A DNA stretch of 34,269 nucleotides from Spirochaetia bacterium (lineage in GTDB: Bacteria > Spirochaetota > Spirochaetia > JABMQR01). The stretch is taken from contig JAIPFR010000007.1 of assembly GCA_021736525.1 (NCBI GenBank), forward strand, positions 1 through 34,269, given 5' to 3'. Under the pieces are notes generated by a model. The model worked only from the letters and a program-made list of their open reading frames with translations, did no database searches and had not been told where the DNA came from. The translations under genes and the position numbers were made by a program. Positions 23,968 through 34,269 of the stretch are shown piece by piece. How positions within the stretch are numbered: the stretch's first letter is position 1; the number at the start of each line of letters is the position of its first letter.

Positions 23968-23986
23968 AATATTTTCTTAAAATATT
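23968..23986 (-). other. AT-only hairpin at the end of xerD
   Basis: AATATTTT and AAAATATT form a perfect 8-bp stem with a 3-nt loop directly at the xerD stop codon. In the reading direction it is followed by an A-rich stretch, so it is not a classical terminator. It lies about 30 nt before the terminator hairpin. Confidence 0.6.
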
Positions 23987-24909
23987 CAGTTTGATTTTGT
24001 TTTCTCACCATTAGCACCCGGATGAAATTCATTAAACTGGCTTTGCAGATGACTTCGATCTATATGGGTGTATATTTGCGTGGTACTTATGGAAGAGTGT
24101 CCCAGCAGTTCCTGGACAATCCTCAAATCAGCTCCTCCGGAAAGAAGGTGTGTGGCATACGAATGTCGCAGAGTATGTACTTTTGCCGATAATCCTGCAT
24201 CTGCGGCATATTTCTTGAACCTGACCCAAAGACTCTTCCTGTTAAGCGGTTTTCCCAGTGCAGACAGAAATACTGCATCATTTACAGTTTTTGCATTGGC
24301 AAGATGGGGTCTGGATTCCTTGAGATATACCTTCAATTCTGCTGCCGCTCGCCTGCCCAAAGGCAGAAGCCTCTCCTTATCCCGCTTGCCAACAACCCGG
24401 ATCAGTTCTTCCTCCATAATAACATCACCCATATGCAGGCCTACCGCCTCGGAAGCGCGGAGTCCGGCAGAATAGATTAGTTCAATTAATGCCTTATCAC
24501 GGATTCCAAGAACAGTTGAGGTTGGAATCACATCCAGGATACGTTCAACTTCGACCAGCTCCAGAACATCAGGAATAATTCTGCCTGACTTCGGGGACTC
24601 AAGCTTATCCGATGGATTGTCGTTTCTAACCCTCTCTTCGATGAGAAACAAACAATACGAATGGATAATTGAGAGAAGTTTGGCAGTTGTCCGCCGGGCT
24701 GTCTTCCCACGGGTGCGTTCTGAAACATACTGTATCAGGGTAACCGAATCAAAGGAGTCCGAAGAAACATTCCTTTTATCAAGATAATTGAGGAACCTGC
24801 GAGTCTCTTGAGTATACATACGTATTGTTGAAGAGGAAAGGCGTCGCTCAAGTGTCAGGTAATCTTCATAGGCTTCAAGCAGACTGCTGCTCACCGTAAC
24901 CGACAGCAT
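23986..24909 (-). CDS. xerD: Tyrosine recombinase XerD-type
   Basis: A site-specific recombinase of about 307 residues. The N-terminal core-binding domain (LEAYEDYLTLERRLSSSTIRMYTQETRRFLNYL) is followed by the catalytic domain with Arg in GLRASEA, Lys in GKRDKER, HTLRH, LGHSS and the nucleophile Tyr in STTQIYTHI. The C-terminal DRSHLQSQFNEFHP resembles the XerD end. It sits 3 nt after ftsZ, linking chromosome-dimer resolution to the division operon. It is not a phage integrase: no attachment site or phage genes are near. The ATG at 24909 has only a weak ribosome-binding site. Confidence 0.88.
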   Translation of the reverse strand: MLSVTVSSSLLEAYEDYLTLERRLSSSTIRMYTQETRRFLNYLDKRNVSSDSFDSVTLIQYVSERTRGKTARRTTAKLLSIIHSYCLFLIEERVRNDNPSDKLESPKSGRIIPDVLELVEVERILDVIPTSTVLGIRDKALIELIYSAGLRASEAVGLHMGDVIMEEELIRVVGKRDKERLLPLGRRAAAELKVYLKESRPHLANAKTVNDAVFLSALGKPLNRKSLWVRFKKYAADAGLSAKVHTLRHSYATHLLSGGADLRIVQELLGHSSISTTQIYTHIDRSHLQSQFNEFHPGANGEKTKSN

Positions 24910-24912
24910 GCG

Positions 24913-26145
24913 CTAGGTATCCGATCCGCTGTCCTGTTTATAGCGTAATACCGCAGGGTACGAATAATCTTCCGGCAGATCTTCATTATTGCCCAATTTC
25001 CTTTGCAGATCCTCCCAGCGGTCTATGGATATTACTTCATCCCGCTGGTGCCCGGGTACTGCCGATTGTGGTGCAACCGCTTCTCGCTGACGCGGCGGCG
25101 GGGTTACACCCAACTCCTTTTTTCTGCTCTTTTCAGTCGCTGCCGTCTCTGCCAGGTCTTTCTGACGGTTGAAACCCGTCGCAACTACGGTTACTTTGAG
25201 ACGGTCACCAAGTTCGGGATTATAAGCCTGCCCGGCTATTATCAGGGCATCATCATCAGCATTCTGGGTGATGATTTCGACCACGTCCTGGTACTCCTTC
25301 AAAGTAAGATCGTCACCCCCAGCTAAATTCACCAGAATTCCCTTGGCCCCTTCGATCCGTGCATTTTCGAGCAACGGATTATTTATTGCCGAATTTGCGG
25401 CATCCACAGCACGGTTCTCCCCTTCACCAATTCCAATACCCATCAAAGCGTCACCGCGCCCCTTCATTACGGTTCGAACATCTGCAAAGTCTATATTTAT
25501 TTCACCAGGCTCTGTTATAAGCTCACTGATACCCTGCACCCCCTGCCGAAGCACATCATCTGCAATCTGAAAGGCCTGCTTAATCGGCGTATTGTTCTCC
25601 ACAATCTTGAGAAGATACTGATTGGGAATTATGATGAGCGTATCGACACTCTTTCTGAGTTTTTCAATGCCTTCAGAGGCTAGCAGCAATTTTTTCTTAC
25701 CCTCAAAAGTAAACGGAGTTGTAACAACTGCGACTGTCAGGGCATTTATCTCTTTTGCAATTTCCGCAATTATCGGAGCAGCACCGGTTCCAGTACCCCC
25801 TCCCATACCCGCAGTTATAAAAACCATATCGGTTCCTTCCAGCAATTCTTTTATCTCTTCGGCGGATTCCTTGGCAGCCTGCTCGCCTATCTCCGGAATA
25901 CCTCCCGCGCCGAGTCCATTGGTGAGCTTGGAACCTATCGGCATCCTGGTATGGGCATTTGATCGCTGCAATGCCTGCATATCGGTATTGAGAACTACAT
26001 AATGAACTTTTTTCAATCCTGCTGCTATCATACGATTTACAGCATTCCCCCCGCCGCCTCCGATACCGATCACCTTAATGTCAGTCGGGGTAGACCGATC
26101 ATTCTCCTCCGCATCTCCAATGCCTTCAAATATCTCAATATTCAT
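24913..26145 (-). CDS. ftsZ: Cell division protein FtsZ
   Basis: FtsZ is the tubulin-like GTPase that forms the division ring. The 410-residue protein has [15 protein letters not shown] (about 26-40), the tubulin signature GGGTGTG (115-121), [38 protein letters not shown], and the C-domain VVATGF. A disordered linker follows, ending in YPAVLRYKQ, a version of the conserved IPAFLRR-like tail that binds FtsA and other partners. The start ATG 26145 has GGAGGG upstream. The 116-nt gap before it (after ftsA) carries a small hairpin. It is followed by xerD after 3 nt. Confidence 0.98.
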
Positions 26146-26157
26146 GATCCCTCCGAT

Positions 26158-26175
26158 AGGTTTTCATGGAAACCT
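26158..26175 (-). other. Hairpin in the ftsZ leader
   Basis: AGGTTT-TCATGG-AAACCT forms a 6-bp stem with a 6-nt loop just upstream of the ftsZ ribosome-binding site, inside the 116-nt ftsA-ftsZ gap. The rest of this gap shows nothing I recognise. Confidence 0.5.
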
Positions 26176-26261
26176 CATTATTCCCCTCAGGGTATTCCAA
26201 CTTTATGTTCTCCGCGGCGAGCCCGGGCAGCTTATTTGTGACCCGCTCCAGAAGACTTTTT

Positions 26262-27515
26262 TTAAAAAAGCACATCAAATATATCTTTCATCCGTTTTAT
26301 CAGCGGATTCTTTCTCTCCTGCGACGAGGCTCCCCGGCCGCGGGCTGTTTTCTGCGGACCAATATCACCCTTTCGCTTTGCTTCATGAAGAACCAGACCA
26401 ATTGCTGTAGCATACTGAGGATCAATATAACGGCTCTCCATTCCCTCTACGGGCTTGGGCAGACCAAGTCGTGCGGGAAGACCGAAAATTTCCGCAGCCA
26501 GCTCAACGGTCCCCGGCAGCATTGCCCCTCCGCCAGTAATTACTATCCCCCCCCCGTAGGAGCTGGATCCCGTTGTTCTATTCTTTGCCAGAATACCTTT
26601 CAATATGGAAAAAATTTCAGCCATCCGGGGTTCTACTATACGGCAAATCTCCCGCTTAGGCATTTTTATTGAAGGCCACCCGCCAATCTGAGGGATGATA
26701 ATATCTTCATGCTTGCCGATCAGTGGACCATAGCAGCATCCATGTTCACATTTCAGCTCTTCGGCCAGGCCTTTCGGCTTGTTCAGGATATAGGCCAAAT
26801 CCGCGGTGACCTGCTCTCCTCCCATATTTATGCCCCCGGCATAATAGGGCGAACCGCCGATAAACCCGATCATATTAGTCATTCCGCCGCCAATATTGAG
26901 AAGCAATGATCCCATCTCTTTTTCTTCCTGGGACAGAACTGCTTCCGAATCTGCCAGCTGATGCAAAATGAGGCGCTGTACTTGGAATCCGGCCCGTTCA
27001 ATGCACTTTCTGATATTCCGTGAAACCGAAAGGGCACCAGTTACAATCATTACCCGCGTCTCAAGTCTATGCCCGAGCATGTCAATGGGATCCTTGATTC
27101 CGCCTCTTCCGTCTACCCGAAAATCCTGTACAAGCGTGTGGAGAATTTCACGATCCAGCGGAAGATCAAAAGCACGTGCCACTTCCATTGAACGATAGAT
27201 ATCTTCTTTGCGGATTTCCTGATTCTGCCCGCTGATGCCGACAACTCCCTGGGAATTATAACCGGATATGTGCTGTCCACCTATACCGGCTACCAAATGC
27301 TGGAGCTCACGCCCTGTCCTCAGTTCTACTTCTTCTATGACTGAAGCTACAACCTTCAGGGCAGTCTCAATGTTTTCAACAGAACCAGCCCGGATTCCTT
27401 CTGAAGGTCTTTCGCTGACACTCTCGATACGAACTTCGCCCTCACGACCGACACTTCCTGCTACGGCACAAATTTTTGAGTTTCCAATGTCGAGACCTAC
27501 AATGTGATTTTCCAC
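26262..27515 (-). CDS. ftsA: Cell division protein FtsA
   Basis: FtsA is the actin-like ATPase that tethers FtsZ to the membrane. The 417-residue protein shows the phosphate-1 motif VGLDIGNSKICAV at the N-terminus, the 1C domain, LLNIGGGMTNMIGF (phosphate 2), GGEQVTADLA and the adenosine motif GGGIVITGGGAMLPG. The C-terminus KNPLIKRMKDIFDVLF is an amphipathic membrane-targeting helix. The start is GTG 27515 with GAGGG upstream. A run of nine G on the coding strand lies in the adenosine motif. It sits between ftsQ (46 nt) and ftsZ (116 nt). Confidence 0.96.
   Translation of the reverse strand: MENHIVGLDIGNSKICAVAGSVGREGEVRIESVSERPSEGIRAGSVENIETALKVVASVIEEVELRTGRELQHLVAGIGGQHISGYNSQGVVGISGQNQEIRKEDIYRSMEVARAFDLPLDREILHTLVQDFRVDGRGGIKDPIDMLGHRLETRVMIVTGALSVSRNIRKCIERAGFQVQRLILHQLADSEAVLSQEEKEMGSLLLNIGGGMTNMIGFIGGSPYYAGGINMGGEQVTADLAYILNKPKGLAEELKCEHGCCYGPLIGKHEDIIIPQIGGWPSIKMPKREICRIVEPRMAEIFSILKGILAKNRTTGSSSYGGGIVITGGGAMLPGTVELAAEIFGLPARLGLPKPVEGMESRYIDPQYATAIGLVLHEAKRKGDIGPQKTARGRGASSQERKNPLIKRMKDIFDVLF
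26547..26555 (-). repeat. Run of nine G (coding strand) inside ftsA
   Basis: The nine C on the plus strand encode the triple glycine of the FtsA adenosine-binding motif (SSYGGGIVITGGG). Alternative glycine codons would break the run, and none is used. Confidence 0.9.
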
Positions 27516-27561
27516 GCTGCCCTCATCTCCCCGTCAACAAATCAAATCACCGGACACAATT

Positions 27562-28398
27562 TCACAGCCTGCAGACCGCTGAATTACCATAAATTGACAC
27601 TACTCCGAATTCATGACCACCAACCCGGTTGTCAGCCATGCCGGCAACCGCTTGAAGATAAGCCAGCAGCGGGGCAAATTCCAAATCATGACTGAATTGA
27701 AATTCAATTTGCGCCTCAGCTATGGCAACGAATAACGAAGCTGATTCTTGATTACTATTATTATCGTATTTTACCCTTGTTATCAAGCTGAAGGTTTCTG
27801 AATCTGCTGCCTGTAATTGCCTAAGCAGTCCTGCAGTCTGCAGCAGCCCTTCAGATGCCTGCCATTCCTCGTCTGTAAAGGCATTCTGCTCTCTCAATGT
27901 TATGATCGGTACCCTGTTGATGAAATAGTGCATATAATCATCAGACGCAAAGAAGGGTCGTCCATTCCGATCGACTGGAATGCGCCGGCTGACCCCTGAA
28001 CTGTTTCCGCTCCAAGTCTCAACAATGAAATATGCCGGTCTGGGATACAGCGATACCGACAGCTTACCATTCCAGGATCGTACTACTTCCGCTGCCAGAA
28101 TCTCATCGAGGGCGCTGAAGGCAGTCTCCAATGCTCCCGGGCTGGCCTCGCTGAATGATATCCCTTTCAGGCGTTCCCCCATCTGGTATATTTCTTCTGG
28201 AAATGGTATTTGAGCCCCGCTGACGCTGATAACAACCTCTTTAATCTCCATATTCGGTTTAATTATAAATTGAAACATCAGATAAATTATTAAAGCAAGT
28301 ACCGCAGTACCAATAATAATGTTTACCAGGAGGCGAAATGGGCGCTTTTTTATTTCCTGCTGTTTTTGATTTTTTCTTAAAAAAAACAGACTACTCAT
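27562..28398 (-). CDS. ftsQ: Cell division protein FtsQ/DivIB
   Basis: FtsQ is a bitopic divisome scaffold that binds FtsL and FtsB. The protein (278 aa) has a basic cytoplasmic N-terminus (FFLRKNQKQQEIKKRPFRLL), one transmembrane helix (LVNIIIGTAVLALIIYLMFQFII), a POTRA-like domain starting IKEVVISVSGAQIPFP, and a beta domain with YPRPAYFIVETWSG and IPVDRNGRPF. Sequence identity in this family is low, so the call rests on topology and position between ftsW and ftsA. The ORF track start at 28476 is too early: AGGAGG precedes ATG 28398, which overlaps the ftsW stop by 8 nt. Confidence 0.85.
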   Translation of the reverse strand: MSSLFFLRKNQKQQEIKKRPFRLLVNIIIGTAVLALIIYLMFQFIIKPNMEIKEVVISVSGAQIPFPEEIYQMGERLKGISFSEASPGALETAFSALDEILAAEVVRSWNGKLSVSLYPRPAYFIVETWSGNSSGVSRRIPVDRNGRPFFASDDYMHYFINRVPIITLREQNAFTDEEWQASEGLLQTAGLLRQLQAADSETFSLITRVKYDNNSNQESASLFVAIAEAQIEFQFSHDLEFAPLLAYLQAVAGMADNRVGGHEFGVVSIYGNSAVCRL

Positions 28399-29584
28399 AA
28401 AGCACCTCCTGAAGGTCCAAGTTGGAATCCGGAGATTTTTCAGCATTAGGATTTCGATACTTGCCTGATGCTGCAAGAACCTTACCTAGCAGTCCTCCCA
28501 TCCCAAGATTAACTATGAGACTCGTCAGTCCTTGAGAGAAAAACGGCAGCGGAATACCTGTTGGCGGAAAAACCCCGATAACAACTCCAATATTCATGTA
28601 TGCTTGGAAGACGATTAAGCTTGTCACCCCTATTCCTAGAAAATGAAGAAACCGATCGTGGTCCCTTAACCGGGCAGCTCCGTAAAAACCTGTAACGGCT
28701 ATCATCCCGAAAAGAAGAAGAACAAAAAGTCCTCCAATGAATCCTGTTTCTTCTACAAAGGATGCAAAAATAAAATCGGACTGAACTTCAGGCAGCAGTC
28801 CGTACTTGTATTCACCGTTGCCCCATCCTTTTCCCATCAGCCCACCCGATCTGACTGCCATCAGTGACGCGTTAACCTGATAGTTTATACCTGAGGGGTC
28901 AAAATCCTTAAAAAGAAAGCCTATAAGACGACGAACCCGGTACGATTCTGTAAAAAGCAGCAAAATTCCAGGAATACCGACAAGTGCAGCCAGATAGGCA
29001 AGATAGGATAATTTTGTTCCAGATGCTGCAAACAGCGAAAAACATACAATCAGAAAAATAACAGTAGTTGAAAAATCGCGCTGCATGAAAATCATGAGGG
29101 CAAAAGCTCCCACAACAGCCGCCGGATAGATGATATAGGAGAATTGTCTGAGCTGGTCCTGATGCTTATCAAAATAGTTTGCCAGAAACAGAATTGTAGA
29201 AACCTTGACCAGCTCTGAAGGTTGGAACCCGATTGAACCTATAGTGATCCACCTTCTTGCGCCCAGCTGTGTTTCTCCCAGGCTGGTAAACAAGGTCAGC
29301 AGCATCAAGATCATGCTGCCAACCAGCACCAGTGGTATTAACAGCCTGATCATCCGAACCGGAAGTGAAAATATTACGACTGCTGCGGCTGTACCGGCTA
29401 GGGAGAAAAGGAACTGTCGTCGGAAAAAGTAGTCGCCTTGAAGCCCCAGACGCATAGCCTTGTCATAAGATGCAGAATAGAGAGAAGCCAGACCGGTTGC
29501 AAGAAGCAGCAGCAGAACTGCAATCAGTAAAAAAAGCAGAGTAAAAGAGGAAAACTTGTTTTCTGCCTGCTGATTTTCCATCAT
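28391..29584 (-). CDS. ftsW: Septal peptidoglycan glycosyltransferase FtsW (SEDS family)
   Basis: FtsW polymerises glycan strands at the septum together with a class B PBP. The 397-residue protein has about ten hydrophobic helices. SEDS hallmarks include GARRWITIGSIGFQPSELVKVS, the loop GWGNGEYKYGLLPEVQSDFIFASFVEETGFIGG and GIPLPFFSQGLTSLIVNLG. RodA is similar, but the location within the fts cluster argues for FtsW. ATG 29584 or the adjacent ATG 29581 is the start, with AAGGG about 9 nt upstream. It overlaps ftsQ by 8 nt. A 115-nt gap with a hairpin separates it from mraY. Confidence 0.94.
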   Translation of the reverse strand: MMENQQAENKFSSFTLLFLLIAVLLLLLATGLASLYSASYDKAMRLGLQGDYFFRRQFLFSLAGTAAAVVIFSLPVRMIRLLIPLVLVGSMILMLLTLFTSLGETQLGARRWITIGSIGFQPSELVKVSTILFLANYFDKHQDQLRQFSYIIYPAAVVGAFALMIFMQRDFSTTVIFLIVCFSLFAASGTKLSYLAYLAALVGIPGILLLFTESYRVRRLIGFLFKDFDPSGINYQVNASLMAVRSGGLMGKGWGNGEYKYGLLPEVQSDFIFASFVEETGFIGGLFVLLLFGMIAVTGFYGAARLRDHDRFLHFLGIGVTSLIVFQAYMNIGVVIGVFPPTGIPLPFFSQGLTSLIVNLGMGGLLGKVLAASGKYRNPNAEKSPDSNLDLQEVLYE

Positions 29585-29607
29585 TCAACCAATCCCTTAT
29601 ATTGGAG

Positions 29608-29628
29608 GCTCTTGCAAAAAGCAAGAGC
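29608..29628 (-). other. Hairpin between mraY and ftsW
   Basis: GCTCTTGC-TTTTT-GCAAGAGC is a perfect 8-bp stem with a 5-nt loop in the 115-nt mraY-ftsW gap. No T-run follows on the coding strand, so it looks like a processing or stabilising element rather than a terminator. It ends about 24 nt before the ftsW ATG. Confidence 0.7.
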
Positions 29629-29699
29629 GTCGTTTTGGTTAGAAGTTTGCATCTATCCAAAGACTGTCCATCCCCTCAGATCCTGATCCATTGATTCTG

Positions 29700-30746
29700 C
29701 TATCGCAGGAAAAAGGCATACATAATAAAGGCACAACAGGTGCTTACTACTCCTGCTGCCCAAAATCCGACAACAATTCTTTTTTCAGCCATACCTTTCA
29801 ATTCAAAATGATGATGCAGCGGCGCCATCCGGAAAATCCTTTTTCCGAAAATTTTAAAAGACGCCACCTGAAGAATTACCGAAAGCGTCTCTGCAAGAAA
29901 GACCGCACCGGCAGCCAGAACCAGCAGTTCGGCATGAAGCATTATCGCCGATACCGCTAAAATGCCGCCTAGACTTTGGCTGCCGACATCACCCATAAAA
30001 ACTTTTGCCGGTTTCATGTTCAACTGCAGGAAACCGAAAAGACAACCTGCCAGCCCCAGAAGCAGCACAATGAATTCTGATCGGAAATATTTATCTGCAG
30101 CATCAGCAGTGCCCATTCCCATCTGCAGCAGAATGACCAGAAAAACAATCAGCAGAATTACCAAGCCTCCAGCAAGTCCATCAAGGCCGTCTGATAAGTT
30201 TACAGAATTAACAAAGAAAAGTATGAATATTCCCGCAAGGGGATAATACCACCCTCCCAGTTCCACTGCGGCACCAGCCATCCATGGCAAATAAAGCAGC
30301 GTTGGATCTGTTACAGAAGTACTTTCGATGCTTATCAGCACTACTGCGGCAGCTAAAGCCTGCAGCAGTATTTTTCCCGCTGCAGACAATCCCCCTGAGT
30401 TTTTTCGAAGCTGCTTCTTCCTGTCATCAATAAAGCCAACCAATCCGAACAGGACCATCCCCAGCAAAAGGGGCAACATCCGAGCCTGCAGCCAATCAAC
30501 CAGAAACAACGATACTATCAAGAGTCCTGCAATGAAAACCAACCCGCCCATGGTAGGAGTACCCTTTTTGCTGTTATGGGACTCAGGTCCTTCTGCACGA
30601 ATGAATTGTCCCAGATTCTGCCTCAGGGAGAAGTGTATAAACGGGTTGGCAATCAGTCGGGTAATTATCCAGGCACCAGCAAATGCAGCCAATCCGCGCT
30701 GTATGACGAATTGGCTCATTTCTGCCCTCAATAATAGTACCATCAT
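29700..30746 (-). CDS. mraY: Phospho-MurNAc-pentapeptide translocase
   Basis: MraY links UDP-MurNAc-pentapeptide to undecaprenyl phosphate, forming lipid I at the inner membrane. The polytopic protein (348 aa, ten helices expected) carries KKGTPTMGG, the catalytic-loop motif FIDDRKK, NSVNLSDGLDGLAGG, MGDVGSQSLGG and the His-rich APLHHHFELKG. The ORF track starts at 30794, but GGGAGGG lies 5-6 nt before ATG 30746, which gives the usual N-terminus. It follows murF by 22 nt. Confidence 0.97.
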   Translation of the reverse strand: MMVLLLRAEMSQFVIQRGLAAFAGAWIITRLIANPFIHFSLRQNLGQFIRAEGPESHNSKKGTPTMGGLVFIAGLLIVSLFLVDWLQARMLPLLLGMVLFGLVGFIDDRKKQLRKNSGGLSAAGKILLQALAAAVVLISIESTSVTDPTLLYLPWMAGAAVELGGWYYPLAGIFILFFVNSVNLSDGLDGLAGGLVILLIVFLVILLQMGMGTADAADKYFRSEFIVLLLGLAGCLFGFLQLNMKPAKVFMGDVGSQSLGGILAVSAIMLHAELLVLAAGAVFLAETLSVILQVASFKIFGKRIFRMAPLHHHFELKGMAEKRIVVGFWAAGVVSTCCAFIMYAFFLR

Positions 30747-30768
30747 GTTCACCCTCCCATAGCACCTC

Positions 30769-32157
30769 TCAGGAAACCAAGCCCAACGGCACAAGCAGCC
30801 GTTCCATCTGCATTGCCCGGGAGCCTTTTAAAAGCAGTAAATCTCCGTCATGCACATATGACGAAACAGCATGCTCAAGCTCATCATACGATTCCGTGAA
30901 AAAAAGCTGCTGAACAGAATGTGAGTTCTTCAGAACCCTATAGGCTGATTCCATCTCTTTGCCGTACAGAAATGCCGCAGAGGGAGACAAGTTTTTCACC
31001 TTAATCCCCAGACGGGCATGAGCAGCCTGTGATATCTTACCTAAATCCTTCATCGAGCCAAGAACAACCGCTTTGCGCCCTTTCCAATCGAGGTGCCGCA
31101 TGTAATCAAGAATTTTTCCTGATGAGTCTGTATTGGCATTGTAGCTATCCTCAATTACTGTAACCTTTCCGGACATTACCCGGCTCCTGCCGGGAAGAGG
31201 ATCGAGAGATTCAAGACCATGCGCTATATGCGATGGTTCGGCTCCTATATCCCGAGTCAGCGCAATTGCTCCTAAAGCATTGAGCAGATTGTGGAGACCG
31301 ACATGTTTGAGGTGGAATTCTCGATTTTCGTATGTAATTCGCCATCCCTGCAAACCAAGAGATTCCGCCCCCTGAAAACCTCTGGTACCCTCTCGACCGA
31401 ATTCACGAAAGTCCAGACTTCGAAGATCTCGCAGGAACCCCTTCCAAACGTTGTTTTCGTTGATATATCCACGGCGTACCTCTGTATGAAAAATTTTACT
31501 TTTTTCGCGTGCGATGGCCTCCATACTTCCAAAATTTGCAATATGAGCTGTCCCGACATTGGTCATCATACTGTATTCAGGAGAATAGACTTCCAGCATT
31601 CGATCCATTTCTCCAGCAGCACTGATTCCCATTTCAAACACACCAAACTGATGATGTGACTCAATATTGAATAGAGATAAAGGCAGTCCTATTTCAGAGT
31701 TGTAGTTCCCCGGGGTTTTCACGGTACTGCCCAGTTCAGAAAGAATGGCACTGATCATCTCTTTTGTTGTAGTTTTTCCACTGCTCCCGGTTATGGCTAT
31801 GCGCGTCAGAGAATTGTGGGTTGCTACCCATGCCGATGCGAGCTGCTGCAGAGCTTTCAAGGTATCATCTACAACAACAACAGCAGCTTTTTGCAGTGCC
31901 AGCTGTGTTCCAGGGTCCCTGGGAATATGCTGCAATTCAACCAGTAATACCCTAGCACCCGCATTTACCGCTGATTTGAGGTGTTTATGCCCGTCTGTTC
32001 TCTCACCATGAAGCGCTGCAAAGAGGGAGCCGTCTTTGACAGCTCTCGAATCAACGACAACATCAGAAACCCATTTGCTTGAAAGAGAGCTCCCAAAGAG
32101 CAGCCTGCCGCCGGTGACGGCAGCTATTTCCGCCGCAGTAAAGATTTTTCTGTTCAT
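30769..32157 (-). CDS. murF: UDP-MurNAc-tripeptide--D-Ala-D-Ala ligase
   Basis: MurF adds D-Ala-D-Ala to the UDP-MurNAc tripeptide, the last cytoplasmic step of the precursor. The protein (462 aa) shows the N-terminal domain with VVDSRAVKDGSLFAALHGERTDGH, the ATP loop GSSGKTTTKEMI, the central-domain TPGNYNSEIGLPLSLFNI, FEMGISAAGEMDRM, TNVGTAHIANFGSMEAIAREKSKIF, and the C-terminal EDSYNANTDSSGKILDYM. The ORF track start at 32187 would add ten residues. I prefer ATG 32157, which is the conventional N-terminus and sits next to the ftsL stop, but its AGGAGG is 13 nt away, so the start is not certain. Confidence 0.95.
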   Translation of the reverse strand: MNRKIFTAAEIAAVTGGRLLFGSSLSSKWVSDVVVDSRAVKDGSLFAALHGERTDGHKHLKSAVNAGARVLLVELQHIPRDPGTQLALQKAAVVVVDDTLKALQQLASAWVATHNSLTRIAITGSSGKTTTKEMISAILSELGSTVKTPGNYNSEIGLPLSLFNIESHHQFGVFEMGISAAGEMDRMLEVYSPEYSMMTNVGTAHIANFGSMEAIAREKSKIFHTEVRRGYINENNVWKGFLRDLRSLDFREFGREGTRGFQGAESLGLQGWRITYENREFHLKHVGLHNLLNALGAIALTRDIGAEPSHIAHGLESLDPLPGRSRVMSGKVTVIEDSYNANTDSSGKILDYMRHLDWKGRKAVVLGSMKDLGKISQAAHARLGIKVKNLSPSAAFLYGKEMESAYRVLKNSHSVQQLFFTESYDELEHAVSSYVHDGDLLLLKGSRAMQMERLLVPLGLVS

Positions 32158-32158
32158 T

Positions 32159-32476
32159 TCAGCTGCCGCTCCTCCTTTCTTTCTCATCCCTCTCAGGTAC
32201 TTGTATTATTGCAAAATTTTCTTCAGTGGCTTTTTTCATGCTGAGCACAAATTCAGCAATTCTTGCTATCCTGTCCGGGGAAGCGAGTTCTGCCCTTTCT
32301 GCCGCCAATATTCTGCTTTCCTCGTACAGCAGCTGCATTTCAATTTCCATGCTTTCAATTTCCAGCTGCAGGTGTCGGTTCACGGCAGCCTGATAAACGG
32401 GAAAAAGACTCAGAGCAGGCAGAAATACAGCAAGAATCAGTATGGATAATCTCCTTAATCGCCTATTCTTCATCAT
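32159..32476 (-). CDS. ftsL: Cell division protein FtsL
   Basis: FtsL is a small bitopic divisome protein that pairs with FtsB and FtsQ. About 105 residues: a basic N-terminus (MKNRRLRRLS), one transmembrane helix (ILILAVFLPALSLFPVY), then a coiled coil (LQLEIESMEIEMQLLYEESRILAAERAEL) and a C-terminal part with SPDRIARIAEF, the typical FtsL element. The ORF track start at 32554 lies deep inside rsmH. ATG 32476 or 32473, overlapping the rsmH stop by about 11-14 nt, fits the family. Identification rests on topology and position because sequence conservation is low. Confidence 0.85.
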   Translation of the reverse strand: MMKNRRLRRLSILILAVFLPALSLFPVYQAAVNRHLQLEIESMEIEMQLLYEESRILAAERAELASPDRIARIAEFVLSMKKATEENFAIIQVPERDEKERRSGS

Positions 32477-33482
32477 TACCCCCATTATCAGCTGGCAGTT
32501 TTTCAGCGCAGCGAAAACGGGCACTCCGGGAAGCAGGATTTTCCAGGACCTCATCTTCTGCAGGTCTGACAGGTTTTTTGGTTAACAGTTTTACCAGCGG
32601 GGAGCCTCCGCAAACACATCGGGGAGCATCAGGAGGACAGACGCAGCCGACAGCCAACTTTCTCAGCATCTGCTTAACCCGTCTATCTTCCAGAGAATGA
32701 AAACTTATTATCCCGATCCTTCCCCCGGGCGACAGACTATTGACAGCATTCTCGAGAACCCTGTCGATTCTGTCGAGTTCGCCATTCACTTCGATTCGCA
32801 ACGCCTGGAAGGTCCTTGTCGCCGGATGTATCCGCCCATAACGATAACTACGGGGAACAGATCCTTTTATTATGTCTGCAAGGTCAGCTGAAGTTGATAC
32901 GGCTTTCATCTTTCTTCTTTTTGCTATTGCAGCTGCGATTCTTCGTGAGTACCGCTCTTCTCCATATTGATATATCACATCTGCCAGTCGATCCTGATCG
33001 TAGGTATTCACAATATATTCAGCATTTATTGAACAGTCATGATCGAGCCGCATGTCGAGAGGTTCATCTTTACTGAAGCTGAACCCACGCCCTGATAATT
33101 CATAATGATAAGTTGATATCCCGAAATCAAAGAGAATCGCATCGGGCGATTTTGCGGCACCAAACCGGTCGATGTCGGGGTCGGTGAAGGGGTCAGAAAA
33201 AAAATCGTCAAACCAGACATTAACTGCCGTAAAGCGTGAACTGTAGGGTTCCAGACGTTTTTCTGCCCGGTTTATTATTTCGCGGTCTCTGTCAAGCCCG
33301 ATTACGTGCAGCCGGGGAAACTCTTTAAGGAAGATTTCACTATGACCGCCCTCTCCAAGAGTTCCGTCAATTAATAGAGGGGGATTATCTTTTTGATCGT
33401 TTCCTGCATTTTCCAATGCCGGACCCAAATACTCCAACACCTCACGCGGCAGTACGGAATAATGCAGTACATCGCTTTTCAT
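32463..33482 (-). CDS. rsmH: 16S rRNA (cytosine1402-N4)-methyltransferase RsmH (MraW)
   Basis: RsmH methylates N4 of C1402 in the 16S rRNA P-site. The 339-residue protein shows HYSVLPREVLEYL, the SAM loop DGTLGEGGHSEIFL, DRDREIINRAEKRL, LFDFGISTYHYELSGRGFSFSKDEPLDMRLD and the C-terminal ISFHSLEDRRVKQMLRKL with a cysteine-rich segment CVCPPDAPRCVCGG. A short D/P-rich insertion (SDPFTDPDIDRFG) separates the SAM domain parts and is encoded by a repeat-like DNA stretch. The start ATG 33482 shares 1 nt with the mraZ stop (TAATG). Confidence 0.96.
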   Translation of the reverse strand: MKSDVLHYSVLPREVLEYLGPALENAGNDQKDNPPLLIDGTLGEGGHSEIFLKEFPRLHVIGLDRDREIINRAEKRLEPYSSRFTAVNVWFDDFFSDPFTDPDIDRFGAAKSPDAILFDFGISTYHYELSGRGFSFSKDEPLDMRLDHDCSINAEYIVNTYDQDRLADVIYQYGEERYSRRIAAAIAKRRKMKAVSTSADLADIIKGSVPRSYRYGRIHPATRTFQALRIEVNGELDRIDRVLENAVNSLSPGGRIGIISFHSLEDRRVKQMLRKLAVGCVCPPDAPRCVCGGSPLVKLLTKKPVRPAEDEVLENPASRSARFRCAEKLPADNGGNDEE

Positions 33483-33949
33483 TATTGTTTTCCTGATCCT
33501 GAGGCGTAAAGCATATTGCCAAGGGCTTCTGCTGCGGCTTCAAATTCGTCCTCGCTGTGTTCGAGGAACATGTTGTATTGCTCAGTGCTCCACAATTCCA
33601 GATAGCTTTCTATACCGAGGATAACGGCTTCCTCTTTAGGGTGAATATTGACTGAGTCTCTCAGCAGGGGGGGGATATTGATTCGACCTGCTTTGTCTAT
33701 TTCACAGAGCTGAGCCGGAGCAATGATCCTGCGTTGAAGAATGCGGTTCTGGGCGTTGAACATAGCCCCCGGTCCGCTCATTATCTGGTTTTTCAAGTTG
33801 TTCCACATATCGGGCAGCATCATCCAAAGACTTTTTTCTATACCGCGAGTTATTACAAGAGCATTTCCCGCTATGGAACTGCGCAGACGGGAAGGGATAA
33901 GAATGCGCCCCTTTTCGTCAATCATGTTCCTGTATTCTCCTGTAAGCAT
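33482..33949 (-). CDS. mraZ: Transcriptional regulator MraZ
   Basis: MraZ is a ring-forming DNA-binding protein of the SpoVT-AbrB superfamily that controls the division and cell wall operon it heads. The protein (155 aa) has the duplicated domain: MLTGEYRNMIDEKGRILIPSRLRSS with the hallmark DEKGRI, and a second copy EIDKAGRINIPPLLRD. The ORF track starts at GTG 33979, but GGTGGGAG sits just before ATG 33949, the conventional N-terminus. It is the first gene of the cluster. The upstream region contains GTGGGA-type boxes in 10-bp register, the expected operator, so autoregulation is likely. A run of eight C on the coding strand (33667-33674) lies in the NIPPLL region. Confidence 0.96.
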   Translation of the reverse strand: MLTGEYRNMIDEKGRILIPSRLRSSIAGNALVITRGIEKSLWMMLPDMWNNLKNQIMSGPGAMFNAQNRILQRRIIAPAQLCEIDKAGRINIPPLLRDSVNIHPKEEAVILGIESYLELWSTEQYNMFLEHSEDEFEAAAEALGNMLYASGSGKQ

Positions 33950-33994
33950 TGCTCCCACCTTGAAAACTTCTTTTACCACTTATCTGAAATAATC

Positions 33995-34020
33995 TACCAC
34001 TTTTTACTACTTTCTCCCAC
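33995..34020 (-). promoter_or_regulatory. MraZ operator: three boxes in 10-bp register
   Basis: On the coding strand GTGGGA (34020-34015), GTAGTA (34010-34005) and GTGGTA (34000-33995) repeat every 10 bp with A-rich 4-nt spacers. Further copies, GTGGTA (33979-33974) and GTGGGA (33958-33953), follow at 21-bp steps; the last overlaps the mraZ ribosome-binding site. Known MraZ sites are TGGGN repeats with 5-nt spacing, that is, a 10-bp period. Confidence 0.75.
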
Positions 34021-34021
34021 T

Positions 34022-34052
34022 AATATACTAATCTATCCTCCGTCAAAGTCAA
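34022..34052 (-). promoter_or_regulatory. Promoter of the mraZ division and cell wall operon
   Basis: TTGACT (34052-34047) with either TATATT (34027-34022, 19-bp spacer) or TAGTAT (34030-34025, 16-bp spacer) as -10. A second TTGACG (34046-34041) is adjacent. The MraZ boxes begin 2 nt downstream of the -10, so bound MraZ would block initiation. The choice of -10 is uncertain. Confidence 0.55.
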
Positions 34053-34242
34053 GGCAGGGATTTTTAAAATACCTCAGGGAAAGAAGATATTACAATCTCA
34101 CACTATACGCCTGTTAACTGGCATAGCGGATTAGGGGATTGAAAAATGGGGAAAGAAAGAGAAACAGCTGGATGGATGACAATATTACGAAGAAAATTGA
34201 GGCAGTGGTGATATCCTATCAACCCGGACTGATTGTGAGGCA
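34053..34242. other. Intergenic stretch upstream of the mraZ operon
   Basis: No ORF above 26 codons with a ribosome-binding site and no RNA gene was recognised here. It is purine-rich around 34136-34165. It separates the mraZ promoter from the tandem repeat at the window end. Confidence 0.6.
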
Positions 34243-34269
34243 GTTCATTTAGGGTTCATTTAGGGTTCA
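34243..34269 (+). repeat. 11-bp tandem repeat, cut by the window edge
   Basis: GTTCATTTAGG occurs twice head to tail and a third copy begins (GTTCA) at the last base, so the array continues outside the window. The copies seen are identical. Confidence 0.9.

Follow-up and report, generated by a model that had tools for sequence, protein, structure and literature searches.

What do the regularly spaced GTGG boxes in front of mraZ do in this spirochaete, and which of them belong to a single control site? We analysed a stretch of 34,269 nucleotides from a Spirochaetia bacterium (contig JAIPFR010000007.1), here called the window, which ends 320 bp upstream of mraZ. An earlier note had read the boxes as a helically spaced operator through which MraZ controls the division cluster. 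Our comparisons, in which the boxes prove to be conserved in the genus, the family and most of the class, lend weight to that reading. We consider it highly probable that the leader is an autoregulatory operator at which MraZ would repress, sterically and at the transcription start, its own gene and those that follow, from rsmH and ftsL through ftsZ. The contig end itself carries a tandem 11-bp repeat, GTTCATTTAGG, at 34243-34264 of the window, possibly a point at which the assembly broke.

The first gene encodes MraZ. Its product scores 93.5 bits against PF02381, over the curated cut-off, with domain hits to two stretches, and the solved MraZ chains 1n0e, 9qlr, 9qlg and 9sx6 match it by sequence similarity at 1e-14. 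The DxxxR motif is a signature of the MraZ family, and in the translation we read it in both halves of the protein, as IDEKGR and IDKAGR. Gene order likewise agrees with membership in the family, as mraZ stands first and is followed by rsmH-ftsL-murF-mraY-ftsW-ftsQ-ftsA-ftsZ. The longest open reading frame would place the mraZ start at GTG 33979; this start was rejected because relatives conserve MLTGEYRN from ATG 33949. We note that the interval between ftsL and ftsA holds just the murF-like ligase, mraY, ftsW and the ftsQ-like gene, and that no long open reading frame remains in the cluster (24913-33949 of the window) for ftsI, murE, murD, murG or murC. Directly past ftsZ, at 23986-24909, is a gene for a tyrosine recombinase-type integrase, which could be xerC-like.

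Where do the boxes lie relative to the promoter? The sole promoter-like match in 33900-34269 is TTGACT-N16-TAGTAT, and since it sits at 34052-34025, the boxes fall between the -10 element and the mraZ start. After -10 the minus strand reads ATTA, then GTGGGA gaaa GTAGTA aaaa GTGGTA gattatttcagataa GTGGTA aaagaagttttcaag GTGGGA gca ATG, which puts the boxes of this genome at offsets of 0, 10, 20, 41 and 62 bp (steps of 10/10/21/21). Compared with GTGGGA, boxes 3 and 4 carry one mismatch each and box 2 carries two. The three boxes at 10-bp steps that the earlier note had placed between -10 and the gene are all present there, on the minus strand. An MraZ operator is marked by direct repeats of GTG(G) that precede mraZ at intervals of 10 bp, and boxes 1-3 form such a row, box 2 being degenerate. 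Box 5 lies within AAGGTGGGAG, the ribosome-binding site of the mraZ ATG at 33949-33947.

Features of the mraZ leader and the division cluster, in coordinates of the window
Feature	Position	Strand	Remarks
-35 element TTGACT	34047..34052	-	motif match
-10 element TAGTAT	34025..34030	-	motif match; 16-bp spacer
MraZ box 1, GTGGGA	34015..34020	-	4 bp past -10; expected over the transcription start (inferred from -10)
MraZ box 2, GTAGTA, weak	34005..34010	-	10 bp from box 1; GTAGTA in 4/4 family members
MraZ box 3, GTGGTA	33995..34000	-	10 bp from box 2
Candidate MraZ box 4, GTGGTA	33974..33979	-	21 bp from box 3; least certain box
Candidate MraZ box 5, GTGGGA	33953..33958	-	21 bp from box 4; overlaps the Shine-Dalgarno region
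Shine-Dalgarno region of mraZ, AAGGTGGGA	33953..33961	-	anti-SD duplex energy -7.4 kcal/mol
mraZ	33482..33949	-	stop codon included; 155 aa, starts MLTGEYRN; Pfam MraZ PF02381, E 7.7e-27
rsmH (mraW)	32463..33482	-	Pfam PF01795, 6.6e-104
ftsL	32159..32554	-	Pfam PF04999, 3.3e-6
murF-like Mur ligase	30769..32187	-	Mur_ligase domains; murF inferred from position
mraY	29700..30794	-	Pfam Glycos_transf_4 and MraY_sig1; start codon not settled
ftsW-like	28391..29584	-	Pfam FTSW_RODA_SPOVE, 8.1e-88
ftsQ-like (POTRA)	27562..28476	-	Pfam POTRA_1, 0.00043, just below cut-off; start codon not settled
ftsA	26262..27515	-	
ftsZ	24913..26145	-	

Are the boxes kept in close relatives? In a genus mate whose mraZ protein is 97% identical, the leader (-103 to -1) is 92% identical, as against 65-67% for the 200 bp upstream of the leader and 75% for the third codon positions of mraZ. 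By part, identity is 28/28 in the promoter, 25/26 in boxes 1-3 and 6/6 in box 5. Boxes 1-3, the weak GTAGTA in the middle included, are also kept in two sister-genus genomes. Box 4 reads GTGGGA in the genus mate; of the two sister-genus genomes, one has GTAGAA in its place and the other lacks it. The genus mate and the sister-genus genome with GTAGAA share a spacing of 10/10/21/20. Because box 4 and the spacings vary among relatives, the exact 21-bp steps are a trait of this genome and not of the family. The further statement of the earlier note, that two more boxes at 21-bp steps reach the ribosome-binding site, is thus right as to positions in this genome, but the steps are not kept in its relatives.

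The same note had proposed a comparison of the regions upstream of spirochaete mraZ genes, in which a lack of conservation would count against an operator; the boxes turn out to be strongly conserved. From 124 mraZ leaders of the class, one was taken per genus, giving 81 genera in 39 families. These 81 leaders contain GTGG 251 times, versus 74 in dinucleotide shuffles, and GTGG boxes are paired 69 times at 10 bp, 59 times at 20 bp and 55 times at 30 bp, versus 0.5-0.6 each in the shuffles. Further peaks of pair distance are found at 21, 31, 41-42 and 52 bp, and distances beyond 12 bp cluster at a period of about 10.3-10.4 bp. Since the pair distances fit whole helical turns, the GTGG boxes would lie on one face of the DNA. 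The commonest layout, in 50 of the 81 genera, is GTGGGA-N4-GTGGGA-N4-weak-N4-GTGG (0/10/weak 20/30), and the spacers are A-rich. A TTGACn-N15..18-TAnnnT promoter is found in 60 of the 81 genus representatives (N16 in 57), and TAGTAT is its commonest -10 element (25/60). In the class-wide leaders the first box mostly lies 7-11 bp past -10, and hence at the expected transcription start. The promoter-like site in the window and this class-wide promoter together place the putative operator downstream of -10, at the expected (unmapped) transcription start.

Several details of the class-wide leaders deserve mention in their own right. The third slot is nearly always weak, (A/T)TAGGA-like, between strong boxes (for example in leaders L005, L019 and L056). 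An inverted box of the TCCCA or TACCA type is found exactly 11 bp past a GTGG box in seven of the 81 genus representatives (L007, L040, L044, L124, L018, L112 and L126), that is, in the next slot and in opposite orientation; inverted words at other offsets number only four in the same set. MraZ slots may be readable from both strands. In four leaders of one genus in family f11 (L086, L090, L094 and L110), the GTG start codon of mraZ is itself part of the fourth box, GTGGTG. In some, but not all, of 20 leaders from outside the class, mraZ is preceded by GTGG boxes paired at 10 bp.

Is the array peculiar to mraZ? The core pattern GTGGKA-N4-GTRGKA-N4-GTGGKA, with up to two mismatches allowed, has a single match in the 1.19-Mb assembly, without mismatch and at the mraZ site; the reversed control also yields one chance match in the assembly at the same threshold. 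No second core site, and so no sign of a wider MraZ regulon, was found in the assembly, though a second site could be missed because the assembly is 74% complete. A wider regulon operating through two-box sites was considered and rejected, the 42 matches (up to two mismatches) being about equal to the 37 of the reversed control. Of 198 genomes of the class, 45 contain the strict 0/10/20/30 pattern, each in a single copy, and none contains its reversed control. Where the position of mraZ was listed, the pattern lies directly upstream of the gene in 39 of 39 genomes (compared by eye), and all 28 genomes in which no mraZ was detected lack it. Since many mraZ-bearing genomes also miss the strict pattern, its absence from the mraZ-less genomes is only moderate evidence. 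Most of the listed genomes among the 28 (of 198) in which mraZ went undetected belong to a small-genome family, f19. What the sequence comparisons show directly is that the boxes exist, are phased and conserved, occur as a unique array in the genome and go together with mraZ and its promoter.

How might MraZ act at such a leader? Its binding, ring form and repression at this locus we infer from other bacteria. According to passages in PMC7761207 and PMC8475190, MraZ represses its own cluster through such repeats in E. coli, B. cenocepacia and Mollicutes. The E. coli operator at Pmra is that of Eraso et al. 2014, as cited in passages of the same two papers, and in the E. coli sequence we read GTGGGAAATTGTGGGGCAAAGTGGGAATAA in the same position before mraZ. 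The present leader resembles Pmra in having direct GTGGG-type repeats at 10-bp steps in the interval from promoter to mraZ, reaching the Shine-Dalgarno sequence; E. coli, however, has three strong boxes (0/10/20), whereas this leader has GTAGTA as its middle box and adds two more boxes at 21-bp steps. In B. cenocepacia, the fragment bound by MraZ carries four 7-nt repeats separated by 3-nt spacers, located past -10 and overlapping the start site (PMC7761207). The 10-bp repeat period, the location downstream of -10 and the overlap with the start site (here expected) are shared with PmraBc, but in place of four contiguous repeats there are three contiguous boxes and two spaced by two turns. In Mollicutes, the sites bound by MraZ are direct repeats of AAAGTG[T/G] (Fisunov et al. 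2016, as cited in a passage of PMC8475190), and deletion of mraZ in M. genitalium raises mraW, MG_223 and ftsZ (PMC8475190). AAAGTGG direct repeats before mraZ are found here also, with AAAAAGTGGTA at box 3 fitting the sequence of the Mollicute box.

By analogy with E. coli, B. cenocepacia and the Mollicutes, we propose that MraZ blocks RNA polymerase at the start here. The first gene would supply a ring-forming protein of the AbrB fold that binds head-to-tail GTGG(G/T)A boxes placed at whole DNA turns. From the point at which the single mraZ promoter starts transcription, the row of boxes would extend through the untranslated leader, and several MraZ subunits bound on one DNA face would block promoter access or the early escape of RNA polymerase. 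MraZ would in this way hold down the output of its own gene and of the division genes that follow. Boxes 1-3 would be the core site and box 4 a possible extension of the array, while box 5 would also act as the ribosome-binding site. The sign of MraZ regulation could differ between species.

Could the boxes be due to chance, or to low-complexity purine-rich sequence? Single GTGGGA words are indeed not enriched in the window (8 seen versus 13.5 expected), but a three-box 10-bp array with up to three mismatches matches once where 0.01 is expected, and array frequency, phasing and conservation far exceed those of dinucleotide shuffles. Chance is thereby refuted for boxes 1-3, and its overall probability is negligible. 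We think it very improbable that the G-rich leader works through a G-quadruplex instead of MraZ boxes. A report on S. aureus places such a structure immediately past the mraZ promoter (PMC11796246), and GG runs recur in the boxes; in this leader, however, the G runs are short (2-3) and mostly far apart, and a quadruplex needs neither conserved GTGG at exact 10-bp steps nor A-rich spacers. Does MraZ also control translation initiation of mraZ, by binding to the mRNA or in the region of the ribosome-binding site? The earlier note had suggested that the box nearest the gene could let MraZ affect translation or read-out. Box 5 does overlap the Shine-Dalgarno sequence, and in 45 of the 50 genera with the 0/10/30 layout the last box is 11-15 nt before the start. 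Yet MraZ is known as a DNA-binding repressor (PMC7761207, PMC8475190), and the overlap follows from an operator lying between start site and gene. The leader RNA folds no better than shuffles (z = 0.30) and has no match in Rfam; neither a conserved RNA structure nor a known RNA-binding protein, either of which would characterize an RNA leader regulator, was found. Because RNA structure and RNA family are both lacking, the suggestion finds no support, and translational control by MraZ appears quite improbable.

What, then, are boxes 4 and 5? One proposal confines the operator to boxes 1-3, taking box 5 as nothing more than the mraZ Shine-Dalgarno sequence and the GTGGTA of box 4 as accidental; we give it somewhat less than an even chance. 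In the window's family, GTGGGA or GTGGGG stands 9-10 nt before the start in 4/4 members with a near-constant anti-SD duplex energy (-7.4 to -7.8 kcal/mol), the distance from box 3 to box 5 is 41 or 42 bp, and the sister genus has either no box 4 or a degenerate one; all of this favors the proposal. So does the finding that box-4-type sites of the class have the same anti-SD energies as boxes 1 and 2, which also led us to reject the idea that these sites are tuned as Shine-Dalgarno sequences. Class-wide, however, 56 of the 61 genera having a further box place the last GTGG 20 or 21 bp from box 2, whereas this GTGG lies anywhere between 4 and 50 nt from the start codon. Being fixed to box 2 and variable to the start, it would be set by array geometry and not by the start codon, as an operator box would be. 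Moreover, the family's 41-42 bp amount to four helical turns, and GTGG occurs within 20 nt of the chosen start in only one of 31 window open reading frames, within GTGGAGG (starts chosen by a simple rule that is wrong for mraZ). The window's family is opposite to the class, its last box being fixed relative to the start codon. Shine-Dalgarno function is enough to explain the conservation of box 5 in this family, though the box may have both roles. The best anti-Shine-Dalgarno stretch overlaps the last box in 39 of 56 cases, and position 5 of box-4-type sites is T in 29/56, versus 6/56 for box 1 (p 4e-6). We regard as unlikely an extended array of five sites (0/10/20/41/62) that spans six helical turns, is occupied either by a single MraZ ring wrapping the leader or by more than one ring, and ties repression to mraZ translation through a last site that is also the ribosome-binding site.

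What does an MraZ operator in this leader add? MraZ operators have so far been studied in a handful of bacteria, and in the literature searched we found no paper on those of spirochaetes. This leader very probably adds a new spirochaete example to a type of control site familiar from E. coli, Burkholderia and mycoplasmas. Apart from an unusual, lineage-specific spacing, the window itself is an ordinary instance. The phased array extends over 39 spirochaete families; these share a promoter (TTGACn-N16-TAGTAT), the third slot is consistently weak, and the last box lies close to the ribosome-binding site. Its natural variants, with gaps, weak slots and extra turns, would provide material for the question of how a ring-shaped MraZ reads a straight row of boxes.
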